From positions 130,852 to 194,851 of the forward strand of contig DS999225.1 in NCBI GenBank assembly GCA_000156295.1: a DNA stretch of 64,000 nucleotides, written 5' to 3'. The DNA comes from a marine gamma proteobacterium HTCC2148 (lineage in GTDB: Bacteria; Pseudomonadota; Gammaproteobacteria; Pseudomonadales; Halieaceae). Below, piece after piece: positions 20,559 through 26,695 of this stretch. The notes under the pieces are model-generated. The model had not been told where the DNA came from. It made no database searches and saw only the letters and a list, made by a program, of their open reading frames with translations. Each line of letters opens with the position of its first letter. Positions within the stretch are counted from its first letter, which is position 1. The position numbers and the translations under genes are program-made.

Positions 20559-22940
20559 ATGTCGATTAAACAAAGTGGCGCGAACCTACCCAAACATTTT
20601 TCGATGACAATAATTGCTCGATCCGTAGCTGCAGCAATGGGCATGACTGGTGCAAGCATTGCCAGTGGCCAGGATGAGCAAAGCTTGGCGCTTGAAGAGG
20701 TCGTTGTTACCGCACGAAAACGCACGGAAAGTACACAGGATGTGCCCATGCACATTCTGTCGCTCACCGGCGATCAAATGAAGAAGCAGGGCCTCGTTAC
20801 CCTGGAAGATTTTAGCCGTTTTGTTCCTAGCTTAAGTGTGTCGAGCACCTCACCGGGTCAGAATACCATCACCTTCCGTGGTGTGAGTGACGGCGGTGGC
20901 TTCCTGGTGGATCCTACGGCCGCTATTTATCTCGACGAGCAACCCATGACCGTCACATCGCAAGCGCCTGATATCTATCCCGCAGATATCGCTCGTATTG
21001 AGGCGTTGGCTGGGCCGCAATCAACACTCTACGGCGCAAGTTCACAATCCGGAACCGTGCGCTACATCACCAACAAGCCAGATGCCTCTGCCTTTAGTGC
21101 GGTGGTCGGTGCAGAAGTTAACACCACCAAAGATGGCGAAGAGGGCTATGACTTTGACGCCACTGTCAACATTCCCATTATCGAAGATAAACTGGCTATT
21201 CGTTTAACGGGCTTTAGTGCCACCGAAGGCGGTTACATCGATAATGTGTTGGGCACAACTGTAGTCGATGGTCCAAACCAATATGGATCTGGCCTCGGAG
21301 GCAAAAAAACCAACGCTTCCGTCGTTGATGACGATATCAATAGCGTAGATTGGCTGGGTGCTCGCGCTCAGGTGCGCTGGCTTATGAACGACGACTGGGC
21401 TGCCACGGTCGGTATCAACTATCAGAAAATCGAAGCTGATGGATGGAACGATTACGACGAAACGGTTGGTGATTTGGAGACGATCAAATTTAATAAAGAA
21501 ACTCGCGAGGACGAGTGGTACCAGATTAGCCTTGTTATAGAGGGAGATTTGGGTTTCGCGCAGCTGGTCTCTGCGACATCTTATTATGACCGTGAGATCT
21601 ATTATGAAACTGATACACAGGCCTACTCAGCTTACTTCCACTATACGTTAGGCATCTACGCGGGTTACCAGGCTTATAACTTCGGGCTTGACCCCATCGG
21701 CGCGCAATCAAACGACCAGAGCAACGAAGCATTCACGCAGGAATTTCGCCTGAGTGGTTCAACAGAAAAGATGCAGTGGACGACGGGCGTTTTCTATCAG
21801 GAAACGGAAGAGCGCTGGGACTTTATTTCCTACCTTGACGATTATCGTAATTCACCGGCCTTCGAAACCTGGTCGTATTACTACCCAGGTATTGCGCCCA
21901 CGGACGGTTGGTGGCTGTCGATACAGGAGAGTACCAGGACTGATATGGCCGTATTTGGTGAAGTCGACTACAACCTGACTGAAAAGCTTTCTCTGATTCT
22001 TGGTGGTCGCTGGTTTGATGTCGATATTGACCGTGACTATCAGGTGTATCGCCCACAAACGCGATTGGAGCAAGATCTGCAGGCCGGAGGTGAAGATGAT
22101 GGTTTTGTGCCCAAGGCAGGCTTGCAATATAACTTCACCGATGATGTGATGGTTTATGGTCTTTATTCCGAGGGTTATCGGGTGGGAGGTGTTAACCGAG
22201 GCCGTGGCGATCCTACCCTGCCGTTCGAATATGAATCCGATACACTCGAAAATATGGAAATTGGTATTAAGTCCGTCTGGTGGGATGGTCGTTTCCAATT
22301 TAACGCGACTGCCTACAATATGGAGTGGAAAGATGTTCAGTTAGAGGCAACTGACCCGAGCTTCAATGTAGGTGAACCGTTCCAGGTTGTTGTGGCAAAC
22401 CTTGGCGATGCCGAGGTTCAGGGTATTGACATGGACTTAAAGGCTGTCATTACCAAGAATTTTCAAATCGGCTTTAACATGACCTATATCGATAAGGCTG
22501 AAGTTGAAGCTCCCACAAGCTATCCTGATGATCGCTTTCCTGGAGGCGAGGCCACACTGGGCCTTGAACCAACCTCGGACTTACCCTTGTTCGCAGACCA
22601 ATCCTGGTCTGGTTACGCTGAGTATGGCTGGGAAATGGGAATGTTCGGTGGGTCGGACATCTACATAAGGCTGCAACACAGTTATACCGGCGAGTCCTAC
22701 AACCAGTTGTTCGATGCTAGCTCATCCCCACGCGTGTTGCAGGAAGATTATTCCCAAACTGACATAAGCATGGGGCTGTCGACAGACAGCTGGATGGCGA
22801 GGATTTATGTCAATAACCTTGATGACGAGAGGGGCGTAACTTATTACGACTCCAGTGATTTTGACCCGTTCTTTGGGCGAAGTAGCGTCAACATCATCAG
22901 ACCGAGGAACGCAGGTATCAGCTTCAGGTACAGGTTTTAA
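20559..22940 (+). CDS. TonB-dependent outer-membrane receptor
   Basis: 793 residues. A signal peptide (about 1-38, ending ASIASGQ) is followed by a TonB-box-like LEEVVVTARKR, a plug domain (about 50-165: DVPMHILSLTGDQM, TLYGASSQSGTVRYITNKP) and a 22-strand-type barrel ending in the aromatic ISFRYRF. It imports a substrate across the outer membrane using TonB energy. The type (EEVVVTARKR, no FecA-like signalling extension) is common in marine and sphingomonad catabolic receptors. Substrate unknown; neighbouring genes suggest a bulky or sulfated/N-methylated organic. It is preceded by an FNR-type box and ends at a strong terminator. Confidence 0.92.
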   Translation: MSIKQSGANLPKHFSMTIIARSVAAAMGMTGASIASGQDEQSLALEEVVVTARKRTESTQDVPMHILSLTGDQMKKQGLVTLEDFSRFVPSLSVSSTSPGQNTITFRGVSDGGGFLVDPTAAIYLDEQPMTVTSQAPDIYPADIARIEALAGPQSTLYGASSQSGTVRYITNKPDASAFSAVVGAEVNTTKDGEEGYDFDATVNIPIIEDKLAIRLTGFSATEGGYIDNVLGTTVVDGPNQYGSGLGGKKTNASVVDDDINSVDWLGARAQVRWLMNDDWAATVGINYQKIEADGWNDYDETVGDLETIKFNKETREDEWYQISLVIEGDLGFAQLVSATSYYDREIYYETDTQAYSAYFHYTLGIYAGYQAYNFGLDPIGAQSNDQSNEAFTQEFRLSGSTEKMQWTTGVFYQETEERWDFISYLDDYRNSPAFETWSYYYPGIAPTDGWWLSIQESTRTDMAVFGEVDYNLTEKLSLILGGRWFDVDIDRDYQVYRPQTRLEQDLQAGGEDDGFVPKAGLQYNFTDDVMVYGLYSEGYRVGGVNRGRGDPTLPFEYESDTLENMEIGIKSVWWDGRFQFNATAYNMEWKDVQLEATDPSFNVGEPFQVVVANLGDAEVQGIDMDLKAVITKNFQIGFNMTYIDKAEVEAPTSYPDDRFPGGEATLGLEPTSDLPLFADQSWSGYAEYGWEMGMFGGSDIYIRLQHSYTGESYNQLFDASSSPRVLQEDYSQTDISMGLSTDSWMARIYVNNLDDERGVTYYDSSDFDPFFGRSSVNIIRPRNAGISFRYRF

Positions 22941-23015: not shown

Positions 23016-23957
23016 CTAGTAGGGCCAGACTTCTAATCCGTGAATGGCGTTGCGAATGTCCATTGTAAGATTAACAGCAGCGACTCGTTGTCCTTCCTGC
23101 AAATCATAGATGCTAAGCGTTGAAGGCGAAGACCCGCCCACCACAAATCTCTCGTTCAATGGACAAAGCCCGCGACCAAAGCCCTGGCGAGCGATTCTCG
23201 AGTCGTCAACGCCGACAAAATCTAACGCTTCCCGGTCGTAGGTAAGCACTGGCAAGGCGCACTGACGGCCCTCTCTAGAGACGTAGCGAATCACATCGTT
23301 GCCGGTATCATTCAACAGCACGCCGCCGTTAAATGGTTGGGCGTTGTGGCAGCCCTGGGGCAGGTTACAGACTTCATCGACTGTCATTTCGCCTGTGAGT
23401 TGCAACAGGGCGCGCGTATTCAGGCCGCTGATAAAAATGCCTGAACGGGCGACATGTATCATATTGATATGGTAGTTATTGCTGAGAGACGGGCCTCCCG
23501 AGGACTCAGGGTCAAAGGTTTGCGCTACCCATTGCTTGCCGTTGCGACTCAAATACACGCCCCAGGTAAACTTGCGTTTAATCAGGTCAAAAGCGAGCAC
23601 GCTGTCGTAACCGGTGGAGGTTAAGAAGAGTTTGTCATCACGGCGGCTAATTTCATGACAGTGACGTAGGTAAGGGTTGGTATAGGACGCCTCAAGCTTG
23701 AAATCGGGCGTGTAACAGAATAGTTCGTCACTGGCGGCTACAAACACCTGATCACTATTAAACTCAATGCCACGTAATCCTCGGTCCCAGCCTCGTCCCG
23801 TGAAGTCTATTTCACTCGTATTCCAATCCAGACGTTGTTCTACTTTTCCCTCGGCAAAATCAACAATGTAAAGGCCGCCATGGCTTTGGCCCTTTTCGCT
23901 ACCTCTTACAACAGATGTGGTCACAAGTTTTGGAAGCTGTGAGAGATCAGCTGCCAT
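23016..23957 (-). CDS. Predicted beta-propeller-like protein, conserved hypothetical (TIGR03032/DUF4915-like)
   Basis: 313 residues with no signal peptide. It shows repeated short strands typical of a propeller: GGLYIVDF, GLRGIEFNSDQVFVAAS, HCHEISRRDDKLFLTSTGYDSVLAFDL, NMIHVARSGIFISG, GGVLLNDTGNDVIRYV and RFVVGGSSPSTLSIYDL. Several His-containing turns recur. It resembles a family often found next to TPR proteins, but I am not certain of the name. GGAG lies about 9 nt before ATG 23957, and the gene overlaps the TPR-sulfotransferase by 11 bp, so the two products probably act together. Confidence 0.6.
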   Translation of the reverse strand: MAADLSQLPKLVTTSVVRGSEKGQSHGGLYIVDFAEGKVEQRLDWNTSEIDFTGRGWDRGLRGIEFNSDQVFVAASDELFCYTPDFKLEASYTNPYLRHCHEISRRDDKLFLTSTGYDSVLAFDLIKRKFTWGVYLSRNGKQWVAQTFDPESSGGPSLSNNYHINMIHVARSGIFISGLNTRALLQLTGEMTVDEVCNLPQGCHNAQPFNGGVLLNDTGNDVIRYVSREGRQCALPVLTYDREALDFVGVDDSRIARQGFGRGLCPLNERFVVGGSSPSTLSIYDLQEGQRVAAVNLTMDIRNAIHGLEVWPY

Positions 23958-25956
23958 TAGAGATATCTCCTTTCTCGGTGGGAAGAATGGTTGATAGTAC
24001 GTCGATCAGAGGGTTCAGGTTGGTGCCAAACCGCTTCCAGGTGTTGACGGACCGTGAGTAAATAGGCTGCCTGACTTGTTCAGAGCTTGCCGTTCTTACG
24101 GCCCTATCGGTATTGTGAAAGTTAACGCAGCCCTCTTCAAACGGGAGATCACAGTAGTCGAGTATTCTCCTAACCTGATTATCCAGATCTGAGACCACGT
24201 CCTCATACTGTACATGGAGTACCTTACCCGGTAGCACTGAATCCCAGTAATCCATCATCGATTGGTACTCAAGATAGAATTCACCCAGCTCAAATAAATC
24301 GTAAGTAAATGTTTGGCCCTTCGCAAAATGCTGTTTAAAACAACCCAGGCAACTGTCCATGGGGTGTCGTCTGGCATCAATGATTTTTGCGTTGGGCAGA
24401 ATCAGGCTTATGAACCCGATGTGGGGAAAATTGTTAGGCATTTTGTCGGTGAAGTAAACGCCACCAGCTCGGTAACGCTGAGTTTGAGAAATGTACTTGT
24501 CGCCCAGTTCGCGCAACTGCTCACCGCTTAACTCTGAAATGATTCCAGGATAAGCGACTCCGCGAGTTCTGTCGGTGAGTGATTGAGAAACCAGGCTGAG
24601 ATCAGCAAGCTCACTGGTGCCGTCGACCTGGCTGTGACTGGCCAGAATTTGCTCTAGCAATGTAGAGCCTGAGCGCGGTAAGCCCAGAATGAAAATTGGT
24701 GCTGCGTCTTCACAGCCATATGTTTGTGAGGCAAGTTTTTCGAACAGTTCAGCGCTAAACACATCGCGAATCTTGTTATGGATAACCTCTGTTTGTACTG
24801 GGTCATAAGCAATAGTCTCGCGATGCGTTTCGTTTGCTCTGCTGTAATACTCAAATGCCTTGTCATAATCCTTGGCATCTTCAAAAGCTTTGCCAAGGGC
24901 GAAGCAAAAATGCACTACGGATTCCTTGCTGAGTTGTTCGCTTTCCAGTCGACGGGTCATATCCTCAATCTCGGCGTCATCGAAAACGAATGTTTTCAGG
25001 TTCGAGAGGCTATAGTGAATTTCGCCAAAGTTGGGCCTGAGCTTCATGGCTGCCCTGTAGGCGGCGATGCCTTCTTCCTGCTTGCCCAGCGTTTTTAGCA
25101 CGTGACCAAGCCCCAGGTGAGCGCCTGATAACGAAGAGTCGATCTGCAAGGCCCTCTGGTAGGATGCTTCAGCTAACTCGGGGCTGGAGTCCATTGCCAA
25201 TGCAGCACCAAGAAAATAATGCGTTATCGCATTGTCGGGCTCAATTTCACGGGCCTTTTTCAGGGCTTCAATGGCTTCGGTAAATTTACTTTGTTCTTTC
25301 AAAGCAGTACTCAGGTCATGCCAGGCCTGAATAAATGGAGGAGCCATCTGAACAACCTTGCGCAGCAGTGCCTCAGCATCGTCATAGCAATGGGCTTGTA
25401 TTGCGATTCTCGCCAGCAGCGCGGCTGCGTTGACGTCTTGCGGGTTTTGTCTGACCAGTTCTTTAGCGACAGTCTCAGCTTCTCTATACTTGCCCTGGGC
25501 AAACAAAACAGATGCCTGCTCTATTTGTCCTTTCTGTGGTGATAGAGCACGCGATCGCGCAAACGCTTCTTCCGCTTTATCGTCATGCCCCGTCGCTTTT
25601 AATGCGCCGCCAAGCTTGAAGAAACTCTCGGCGCTTTGCGGATTGAGTTCAACAGCCTTTACAAGAAAAGGAATCGCTTCTGAGGGCTTTTTCAGGTTTA
25701 GCAAAGCGGTACCCAAGTCCTCCTGTGCGCGCGGAAAGCCGGGAGCAATTTTTACCACGCGACGTAGAGTTTGCTCTGCCTCATTCAACTTGCCCTGACG
25801 CATAAGGCTGGTGCCCAGTAATGCAATGAAGTTGACATCCGAGGGATCAGTTTCAAGCGCCTGCAGGCAGACAGACTCTGCCTCCTGGTTGGCATTTTCC
25901 TTCATCAGGTCTACGGCGCGTTTGAATAGATCTTTCAAGTTCATTGGGTCGGTCAC
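23947..25956 (-). CDS. TPR-repeat sulfotransferase (protein/peptide sulfotransferase-like)
   Basis: 669 residues from GTG 25956 (AGGA upstream; ATG 25944 is an alternative). About ten TPR units cover residues 1-345 (for example LGTSLMRQGKLNEAEQTLRR). The C-terminal sulfotransferase domain begins near residue 415 with the PAPS loop IFILGLPRSGSTLLEQIL and continues with DKMPNNF, DARRHPMDSCLGCF and YEDVV. TPR-sulfotransferases resemble tyrosylprotein sulfotransferases, so the acceptor may be a protein or peptide held by the repeats. It is divergent from the beta-hydroxylase gene and co-transcribed with the propeller gene. Confidence 0.88.
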   Translation of the reverse strand: MTDPMNLKDLFKRAVDLMKENANQEAESVCLQALETDPSDVNFIALLGTSLMRQGKLNEAEQTLRRVVKIAPGFPRAQEDLGTALLNLKKPSEAIPFLVKAVELNPQSAESFFKLGGALKATGHDDKAEEAFARSRALSPQKGQIEQASVLFAQGKYREAETVAKELVRQNPQDVNAAALLARIAIQAHCYDDAEALLRKVVQMAPPFIQAWHDLSTALKEQSKFTEAIEALKKAREIEPDNAITHYFLGAALAMDSSPELAEASYQRALQIDSSLSGAHLGLGHVLKTLGKQEEGIAAYRAAMKLRPNFGEIHYSLSNLKTFVFDDAEIEDMTRRLESEQLSKESVVHFCFALGKAFEDAKDYDKAFEYYSRANETHRETIAYDPVQTEVIHNKIRDVFSAELFEKLASQTYGCEDAAPIFILGLPRSGSTLLEQILASHSQVDGTSELADLSLVSQSLTDRTRGVAYPGIISELSGEQLRELGDKYISQTQRYRAGGVYFTDKMPNNFPHIGFISLILPNAKIIDARRHPMDSCLGCFKQHFAKGQTFTYDLFELGEFYLEYQSMMDYWDSVLPGKVLHVQYEDVVSDLDNQVRRILDYCDLPFEEGCVNFHNTDRAVRTASSEQVRQPIYSRSVNTWKRFGTNLNPLIDVLSTILPTEKGDISNGS

Positions 25957-26128
25957 TGAAAATCCTGAAATATAGGGGTGGCGGCTTTATGGTGCATTCA
26001 AGGGCGTTGATGATCAGACGACCTCTATGCTAAAAATAGCTGCCTGAATTAGGCGTTAAAGCATAGTAATATAGTGACACAGATGCCAGTGTTTTTCTGC
26101 GTTCAGGTGTCATGAAAGAGAGCTAGTT

Positions 26129-26695
26129 ATGGATATAGGAGTCCCGCTGCGGGAATTAGGCGAGTTCGATATTGAGCCACTGAAACAGGCTATTTTGGGT
26201 CTGGACGAGGGTGTCTGGCATGGTAACGAGTATCGCCAGGAGACCTATGAGGTTCATGAGCAAACCCAGTCAGTCGTGCTGGTGTTCACTGATGGATCCG
26301 GTTGGCCCGATATAGAGGTGCGCAAGGAGGCCGGTTGGGACATGCTCTCAGAACAGGCTGTGCCCTTGATGCATGCGATTCTTGAGCAGTATTATCCGCC
26401 CGGAGGCACCATAATTAGAGCTATGGCGGCAAAATTAGTGCCCGGTGGGGTGATCAAGCCGCATCGAGATAGCCATCCATCGTTTCACTACGGGCATCGT
26501 ATTCACATACCAATTGTCAGTAACCCACGGGTCCGCTTCATGCTAGACGGAAGACCCTACCGGTTTGAGGTAGGCAAAGTTTACGAAATCAACAACCAGA
26601 AAAAGCACAGTGTCATGAACAAGGGCGATGCCGGACGTATCAATTTTATCTTTGATTACGTGCCTCCACAAAATATTGGCCAGGGTGCTGGGTAG
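26129..26695 (+). CDS. Aspartyl/asparaginyl beta-hydroxylase-like 2OG-Fe(II) oxygenase
   Basis: 188 residues. The core reads MAAKLVPGGVIKPHRDSHPSF..., GHRIHIPIVSN, FMLDGRPYRFEVGKVYEINN, KKHSVMNKG and GRINFIFDY. This fits the Asp_Arg_Hydrox family, with iron ligands expected at the H of KPHRD and the H of KKHSV and the 2-oxoglutarate contact at the Arg after it. It hydroxylates a residue or small molecule in an oxygen-dependent way. Its gene is divergent from the TPR-sulfotransferase across 172 bp that contain a GCCT-N5-AGGC palindrome (26042-26054). Confidence 0.82.
   Translation: MDIGVPLRELGEFDIEPLKQAILGLDEGVWHGNEYRQETYEVHEQTQSVVLVFTDGSGWPDIEVRKEAGWDMLSEQAVPLMHAILEQYYPPGGTIIRAMAAKLVPGGVIKPHRDSHPSFHYGHRIHIPIVSNPRVRFMLDGRPYRFEVGKVYEINNQKKHSVMNKGDAGRINFIFDYVPPQNIGQGAG

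Follow-up and report, generated by a model that had tools for sequence, protein, structure and literature searches.

What do a sulfotransferase, a beta-propeller protein and a hydroxylase act upon when their genes lie side by side in a marine bacterium? The question is raised by a stretch of 64,000 nucleotides from the marine gamma proteobacterium HTCC2148 (contig DS999225.1; hereafter, the window). In it, the gene for a tetratricopeptide repeat (TPR) protein with a sulfotransferase domain (TPR-ST, 669 aa, 23947-25956, minus strand) lies between those for a six-bladed beta-propeller (PROP, 23016-23957, minus strand; assigned by an AlphaFold2 (AF2) model and its fold matches) and for a single-domain 2-oxoglutarate (2OG)/Fe(II) oxygenase of the Asp_Arg_Hydrox family (AspH, 188 aa, 26129-26695, plus strand; PF05118, 1.5e-12). 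A preliminary description of these three genes reported that PROP overlaps TPR-ST by 11 bp and that AspH is divergent from them. Both observations hold: bases 23947-23957 are common to the first two genes, and 172 bp separate AspH from TPR-ST. A fourth member was absent from that description, namely a TonB-dependent receptor (TBDT, 20559-22940, plus strand; PF00593, 2.4e-32; PF07715, 1.2e-14), which is convergent with PROP and ends 75 bp from it. Our analysis suggests a bacterium that chemically tags its own outer-membrane nutrient receptor.

In the explanation that we favor, and to which we give slightly less than an even chance, the locus encodes a set of modifying proteins dedicated to one receptor, and TPR-ST would sulfate its own TBDT, prior to export, on loops destined for the cell surface. 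The TPR array would grip the unfolded TBDT precursor in the cytoplasm, where 3'-phosphoadenosine 5'-phosphosulfate (PAPS) is made, and the sulfotransferase (ST) domain would sulfate several tyrosines of the future loops L4 and L5. The receptor would then be Sec-exported and inserted, and its mouth would bear sulfotyrosines, both aromatic and anionic, for ligand selection. AspH, a 2OG enzyme that would also be cytoplasmic, would hydroxylate the same TBDT, and PROP would be either a partner of AspH or a reader of the mark. Because no signal peptide was evident at the start of PROP, TPR-ST or AspH in translations read by eye, all three should be cytoplasmic, where both PAPS and 2-oxoglutarate are found.

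Conservation of the gene group

We scanned named genomes for PROP and labeled the neighboring genes with hidden Markov models seeded from relatives of the window proteins; the counts rest on the best 80 of 177 loci. Within these 80, most loci belong to marine gammaproteobacteria, including Luminiphilus/Halieaceae, SAR92, Porticoccaceae, Woeseiaceae, Lysobacterales and Pseudohongiella, and alphaproteobacterial loci occur in Emcibacteraceae and Hyphomonadaceae. In a second set, 293 genomes of the window's order, PROP is present in 19; the two sets partly overlap (e.g. L104/G003, L109/G261, L134/G047). In the 46 of 80 loci that were fully flanked (8 kb or more to either side of PROP), a sulfotransferase was found in 40, a TBDT in 39 and AspH in 28, and 27 held all three. 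The genes of the preliminary description thus do co-occur in other genomes, so that the lack of co-occurrence it had named as its own disproof is not what we found. The median gap between TBDT and PROP was 80.5 bp in the 66 of all 80 loci that bear a TBDT.

Gene order and strand differ between loci. Over the 80 loci, PROP and TBDT were convergent neighbors 49 times, ST shared its strand with TBDT 28 times and with PROP 22 times, and AspH and ST were convergent 12 times. This strong variability indicates that the linkage is kept under rearrangement. In a distant relative, locus L051, the AspH frame continues into the start of PROP, the remainder of which lies in another frame, which ties these two genes together. 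The window's genome holds 14 PF13469 matches and 53 TBDT-barrel matches, some of which are pieces of one gene, and only 2 AspH matches. As judged from these neighborhoods, TPR-ST, AspH, PROP and TBDT are a conserved gene group and not a chance assembly. The AspH gene of HTCC2080 (L109) and its G261 copy (L028, 3798-4366) reads as two overlapping frames.

The TPR-sulfotransferase

TPR-ST consists of TPR repeats (approximately residues 10-340) and a domain at residues 410-669, in which Sulfotransfer_3 (PF13469) matches residues 420-608 at 6.9e-46. We searched a profile built from 16 ST domains, one of them partly masked, against solved structures. The first match was the tyrosylprotein sulfotransferase TPST1 (5wrj, 2.6e-9, profile positions 6-209 of 259), and further matches included a TPST (8w5z, 6.1e-8, over 8-234) and TPST2 (3ap1, 1.3e-5). 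In the alignment with TPST, the P-loop PRSGST is retained, DKMP lies over NKDP, and SSEQVRQP lies over STDQVIKP. We take these positions (the PAPS P-loop, the region of the catalytic Lys, and S(S/T)(D/E)QV) to be catalytic in TPST. The conserved Glu of GTxEL falls near EETR of TPST, yet is not cleanly aligned over it. By profile, the catalytic domain of TPR-ST is TPST-like and of the protein-tyrosine kind. The animal enzymes TPST1 and TPST2 share with it the P-loop, Lys and S(S/T)(D/E)QV positions. They differ in that TPR-ST is bacterial, is fused to a TPR array, shows no membrane anchor, and would act on loop tyrosines that are not enriched in acidic neighbors.

The TPR part has an engineered TPR protein as its best structural match (1.2e-75) and also matches the O-GlcNAc transferase OGT (7yea, 3.4e-43). 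Like O-GlcNAc transferase, TPR-ST places a long TPR superhelix ahead of a side-chain-modifying domain, with a sulfotransferase in place of the glycosyltransferase. Another likeness, by description, is to RaxST of Xanthomonas, a bacterial protein-tyrosine sulfotransferase that reportedly sulfates RaxX before export. RaxST serves a small secreted peptide encoded beside it by raxX, whereas the partner of TPR-ST is a TBDT accompanied by AspH and PROP. To our knowledge, bacterial protein tyrosine sulfation is known mainly from RaxST and RaxX.

The association with receptors extends beyond PROP. In 40 additional loci found without PROP, the first in order of E value, 28 of the 41 TPR-STs counted have a TBDT within 500 bp; a 42nd, of 528 aa in locus L193 and outside that count, lies 217 bp from its TBDT. 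All five STs of the window's genome that match the window TPR-ST by BLAST sit in TBDT loci, at distances of approximately 100 bp (contig C11), 74 bp (C30) and 330 bp (C24), 2.6 kb (C16), and 1.0 kb in the window, where PROP lies between. One such ST domain is matched at 1e-15 in 39 of 115 sampled genomes of the window's order.

Tyrosine-rich loops of the receptor

The window TBDT combines the plug and barrel families (PF07715, PF00593), and its AF2 model (mean predicted local distance difference test score, pLDDT, 87.3) has 22 counted barrel strands. Every second turn has 3-5 residues and the other turns are mostly long, although two of the outer turns, 191-194 and 498-502, are also short. In TBDTs generally, the short turns face the inside and the long ones the outside, and we assigned the turns by this rule. 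In the model, this places L4 (residues 353-380, between strands 7 and 8) and L5 (427-449, between strands 9 and 10) outside the cell. The codons for residues 346-392 (21594-21734, plus strand) encode the Tyr-rich loop L4 with D352-x3-Y356, Y370 and Y373, and a second Tyr-rich place, around L5, lies at 420-460.

We compared module TBDTs, that is, those of the gene group, made non-redundant at 60% identity (35 of 90), with 35 unlinked TBDTs of the window's genome. In the stretch 346-392, Tyr makes up 14.9% of residues in the module TBDTs and 3.6% in the unlinked ones (Mann-Whitney U test, 1e-12), and F, H, N, P, S and T showed no difference at 0.05. The densest 40-residue Tyr window is centered at positions 340-379 of the window TBDT in 24 of the 35 and at 420-459 in the other 11. 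Among linked TBDTs, Y356 occurs at a frequency of 0.94 in a group of 90 and of 1.00 in a group of 14; it is present in 0 of 20 unlinked ones (2 of 36 in another alignment). The motif D352-x3-Y356 is found in nearly all ST-linked TBDTs, whether or not PROP is present. Linked TBDTs with and without PROP were also compared with each other, and no residue emerged that would name the AspH target. The plug motif Y-L-D-E-Q-P was considered as the main site and dropped, its Y and D occurring in 33% and 89% of unlinked TBDTs.

Controls for shared descent

The enrichment could also be an effect of lineage only, with Tyr-rich TBDT subfamilies and their neighbors inherited as blocks and no functional tie between ST and loop. 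The linked TBDTs of the window type do form one clade, which also shares Y124, E127, Q163 and D561. We therefore weighed this alternative against contrasts drawn across subfamilies and within them.

Across other genomes and any subfamily, at least 8 Tyr per 40 aa were found in 15 of 27 ST-adjacent TBDTs and in 1 of 27 controls (Fisher test, 4.6e-5); the non-redundant contrast was 10/21 versus 0/25 (8.7e-5). As controls we took the top-scoring PF00593 matches from 4 genomes, in which only the 1.5 kb flanks were checked for an ST. Of 28 such controls, one was excluded because its locus held an ST, and L225 was kept although an ST is listed approximately 4 kb away. Of 28 ST-adjacent TBDTs, one was excluded because it was shorter than 500 aa. 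Where the ST carries the window motifs (G/A)TxEL, DKMPNN and S(S/A)EQVR, 10 of 13 partner TBDTs reach 8 Tyr, counted by eye.

Close relatives of the window TBDT were compared across 13 genomes: the Tyr count of linked receptors was 6 in five, 8 in one, 9 in five and 10 in six, and that of unlinked receptors was 4, 4, 5, 5, 5, 6, 7, 7, 7 and 8 (medians 9 and 5.5, p 0.0017). D-x3-Y was present in L4 of 16/18 linked versus 2/10 unlinked close relatives (p 5e-4), and six of the latter have no Tyr in L4 at all. This set used 30 of 53 matches, from which those of middle distance were left out (3 for the Tyr counts, 2 for the L4 motif). In a second TBDT subfamily (L056 type), linked receptors had counts of 6, 9, 9, 9, 10, 11 and 12, and all 12 unlinked ones had 8 or fewer (p 0.0026). 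Here G099:C2:458306 (ST approximately 3.6 kb away) and, except for L252, matches without a locus were left out; the unlinked group includes L317 (value 2, wrong frame), L322 is a short frame, and the densest Tyr window of L335 was not assigned to a loop. These tests hold near-duplicates, and the L4-motif contrast exists in that form only. Without near-duplicates, the significance dropped from 0.0017 to 0.0071 (15 linked versus 8 unlinked) in the window clade and, with the mispicked frame L317 also removed, from 0.0026 to 0.0097 (6 versus 9) in the L056 type.

Overall, in these comparisons Tyr-rich loops go with a neighboring TPR-ST, also among close TBDT relatives; the association is weaker in non-redundant form and still stands. 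The drop in significance favors pure inheritance, as does the single clade, but the linkage is kept despite strongly varying order and strand, Tyr is missing from L4 in six relatives without ST inside the clade itself, and the contrast is repeated in a second subfamily. We consider a lineage effect alone improbable. In L056 (8744-11257), the TBDT has 12 Tyr per 40 residues, is approximately 24% identical to the window TBDT, and lies beside a diverged TPR-ST. The TBDT of another TPR-ST pair (L054, 10049-12690) is split across two open frames.

A number of observations weigh against receptor sulfation as the explanation. Five of the 46 fully flanked PROP loci lack both sulfotransferase and TBDT. 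Twelve of the 27 ST-adjacent TBDTs are not Tyr-rich, several of them beside other sulfotransferase types; the ST-adjacent TBDT of L193 has only 6 Tyr, and the motif is absent from L273 and from the ST-linked L278, whose L4 has 1 Tyr. On the other side, L4 keeps 6 Tyr in L255 and L281, whose contigs have no listed ST, in L258 and L260, with no ST within 8 kb (AspH is beside both, PROP beside L260), and in L259, where the ST is 7.7 kb away and AspH adjacent. The target tyrosines of animal TPSTs sit in an acidic context, yet D or E lies within 3 residues of 54% of 168 loop Tyr compared with 73% of 662 other Tyr of these proteins, and Asp is lower in the linked loop (9.8% versus 13.4%). Linked TBDTs are richer in Trp as well, both within the loop (p 0.017) and over the entire protein (9.5e-6), and aromatic ligand binding may therefore account for some of the signal. 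The ST profile ranks CurM (9.7e-6, the best non-TPST match) slightly ahead of TPST2, and the window ST sequence alone finds the CurM sulfotransferase first (4.9e-6), with TPST1 only at 0.0088. Finally, the AspH profile is closest to L-proline cis-4-hydroxylase (4p7w, 5.9e-5), a free amino-acid enzyme, with AspH at 0.026.

AspH and PROP

AspH matches PF05118 with 48.1 bits against a cut-off of 22.6. H112-x-D114...H160 and R170 are intact and invariant in 12 sequences; with HxD...H and Arg retained, AspH should be active, as predicted from these residues. It thus shares the domain match and the HxD...H plus Arg signature with the Asp_Arg_Hydrox family (AspH, 4p7w), and departs from it in being a single domain of 188 aa whose closest solved relative acts on free proline. 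The TBDTs of L258 and L259 have AspH within 1.5 kb, no ST beside them and no D-x3-Y in L4; AspH alone may pair with some TBDTs such as these.

PROP had no Pfam or NCBIfam match at 0.01. Its AF2 model (pLDDT 90.1) has six-bladed propellers as its best structural matches (Z 20-23), with Z 23.0 to a six-bladed YWTD propeller and Z 20.8 to arylsulfate sulfotransferase (ASST). Residues at the starts of the inner strands are invariant or nearly so: R59/R62, H99/H101/E102, H163/N165, H204/N205, R257/R262 and R302/N303/H306. This ring of Arg and His in the channel could form a pocket fit for an anionic ligand. The six-bladed fold is what PROP shares with ASST (3elq, Z 20.8) and LDLR-type YWTD propellers (up to 23.0); many six-bladed propellers score alike, and no sequence relation to ASST was found. 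A kinship with ASST by sequence was considered and is unsupported; hhalign to one ASST homologue gave prob 1.0, and only likeness of fold is left. PF05935 was not among the Pfam matches of 21 PROP members, whose weak matches were DUF4915 (PF16261; 4/21, best E 0.034) and PQQ_2 (3/21, best 0.00048). The roles of AspH and PROP are less certain than that of TPR-ST: they might modify the receptor, read its modification, or instead serve the catabolic pathway for the imported substrate.

Link to one-carbon and amine catabolism

A different division of labor has to be weighed here. The substrate of TPR-ST might be a small molecule, either the cargo itself or something derived from it. The Tyr loops would then only cage a methylated or cationic ligand with their aromatic rings, AspH and PROP would be enzymes of the neighboring one-carbon/amine catabolism, and the genes would cluster because all serve one nutrient. 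We scored loci for a homologue (E of 1e-20 or below) of at least one of 12 one-carbon/amine markers. Such a marker was present in 49/58 PROP loci of at least 13 kb, compared with 6/20 unlinked TBDT loci of the window's genome and 4/25 ST-TBDT loci without PROP. The preliminary description had found the trio not evidently tied to the amine genes around it, and these counts contradict that statement. A tie of amine catabolism to TPR-STs in general was rejected on the same counts; it goes with the PROP loci. Part of this link is shared descent, since 9 of the 12 markers come from the window itself and similarity to its PROP is what identified the loci.

Lone PROP genes, without ST or TBDT, adjoin MTHFR, FAD or DAO oxidases or an amidohydrolase in seven loci (L139, L157, L163, L166, L173, L179 and L180), and have no such catabolic neighbors in L130, L133, L135, L141 and L146, some of which are incomplete. 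PROP, and perhaps AspH, may thus be partly part of the neighboring catabolic pathway. In L163, L166 and L179, PROP occurs without ST, AspH and TBDT in a conserved block with an amidohydrolase, an SDR and a zinc alcohol dehydrogenase.

The marker counts and these lone PROP genes are what the separation of functions would predict, and the proline hydroxylase match of AspH, the raised Trp of linked TBDTs and the single-sequence match of the ST to CurM, a small-molecule (polyketide) sulfotransferase, also fit it. Against it, a protein substrate is indicated by the TPR array and by the domain, which is of TPST type in the profile search, and the link of Tyr to ST is also seen in loci that mostly lack catabolic markers and in the second TBDT subfamily. 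The shared frame of AspH and the PROP start in L051 is a further point, as is the distribution of the families c4, c6, c7, c10 and c11 in 55 loci of at least 15 kb, where only 3 of 7 PROP loci without the ST+TBDT pair hold them, compared with 42 of 48 with it. On balance, we regard this separation of functions as somewhat unlikely. If the receptor is the target, as we favor, the cargo at PROP-bearing loci is probably a methylated amine or some other donor of one-carbon units, given the adjoining genes for MTHFR, GcvT-like, DAO and FAD-oxidase proteins.

Search for a precursor peptide

The preliminary description had proposed that the three proteins act on a protein or peptide and that a small precursor peptide might be encoded nearby or elsewhere. 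In such a locus, resembling those for ribosomally synthesized and post-translationally modified peptides, ST and AspH would modify a small secreted peptide that is exported or retrieved via the TBDT. Two printed observations are in keeping with this: the RaxX peptide is tyrosine-sulfated (PMC6637879), and a cluster list in PMC10040529 places a sulfotransferase and an aspartyl beta-hydroxylase after lasso-peptide B2 and before PqqD and asparagine-synthase. That entry, among lasso-peptide annotations, is the nearest printed parallel that we found for such a pair.

From 109 sequences (the window and 108 loci), we collected the 1908 open reading frames (ORFs) that are 20-80 aa long and lie outside larger genes, and grouped them by blastp at 1e-3 and less than 90% identity. 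No family occurred in more than 4 loci in this size range, those of 81-150 aa not being searched. Two families reached 4 loci; one is antisense to AspH, and the other overlaps an opposite-strand ORF of 110 aa in L169. Of the 11 commonest non-module gene clusters, 10 were annotated (one of them an MFS transporter), and among these there was no protease or leader-binding protein, and the persistent protein partner is the TBDT. We therefore consider a peptide-modification locus very unlikely. The proposed action on a protein keeps its footing in the ST domain, which is of the protein-tyrosine kind by profile; the small peptide does not, and the conserved partner is a receptor. The preliminary description is thus partly supported, having recognized a real conserved group with plausible chemistry and missed its most likely target.

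Significance of the proposed receptor sulfation

More broadly, Gram-negative bacteria might tyrosine-sulfate the extracellular loops of dedicated TBDTs by adjacent TPR-guided TPST-like enzymes, accompanied in some cases by a 2OG hydroxylase and a propeller, a generalization that we offer tentatively and with less assurance than the reading of this locus. If it is true, receptor tyrosine sulfation would be widespread in the window's order, in view of the 39 of 115 sampled genomes with an ST-domain match. Such receptors would owe their selectivity to chemically altered side chains and not just to the genetic code, and decisive groups would escape any prediction of TBDT ligands that uses sequence alone. 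The generalization also offers a testable function for a large set of enzymes now named by domain only. Our literature search, whose coverage excluded most subscription journals, found no paper on TPR-sulfotransferases or TBDT tyrosine sulfation.

Neighboring genes and related loci

A second cluster of TBDT-linked modification genes in the window's genome, L055 (6900-17402, contig C16), holds a TPR-AspH, two 2OG-FeII_Oxy_4 proteins, a TPR-2OG_5, a diverged TPR-ST and SapC near two TBDTs. It resembles the window in grouping hydroxylases and a TPR-ST beside TBDTs, and differs in that its TBDTs (958 and 1008 aa) are not Tyr-rich (6 and 4 in 40), its oxygenases belong to other families, and PROP is missing. 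In L053 (646-2127), a carnitine 3-dehydrogenase (NF005716, 737.7 bits versus 592) lies approximately 5.7 kb from a TPR-ST/TBDT pair, and in L054 sarcosine-oxidase-alpha-like, GcvT, Rieske and RACo genes lie beside the pair. In the window itself, 13662-43160 is a region of amine and one-carbon catabolism with two Rieske oxygenases, FAD amine oxidases, GcvT and OYE, and also a gamma-glutamylputrescine-synthetase-like glutamine synthetase (GS), DAO oxidases, an SSF transporter and a molybdopterin enzyme.

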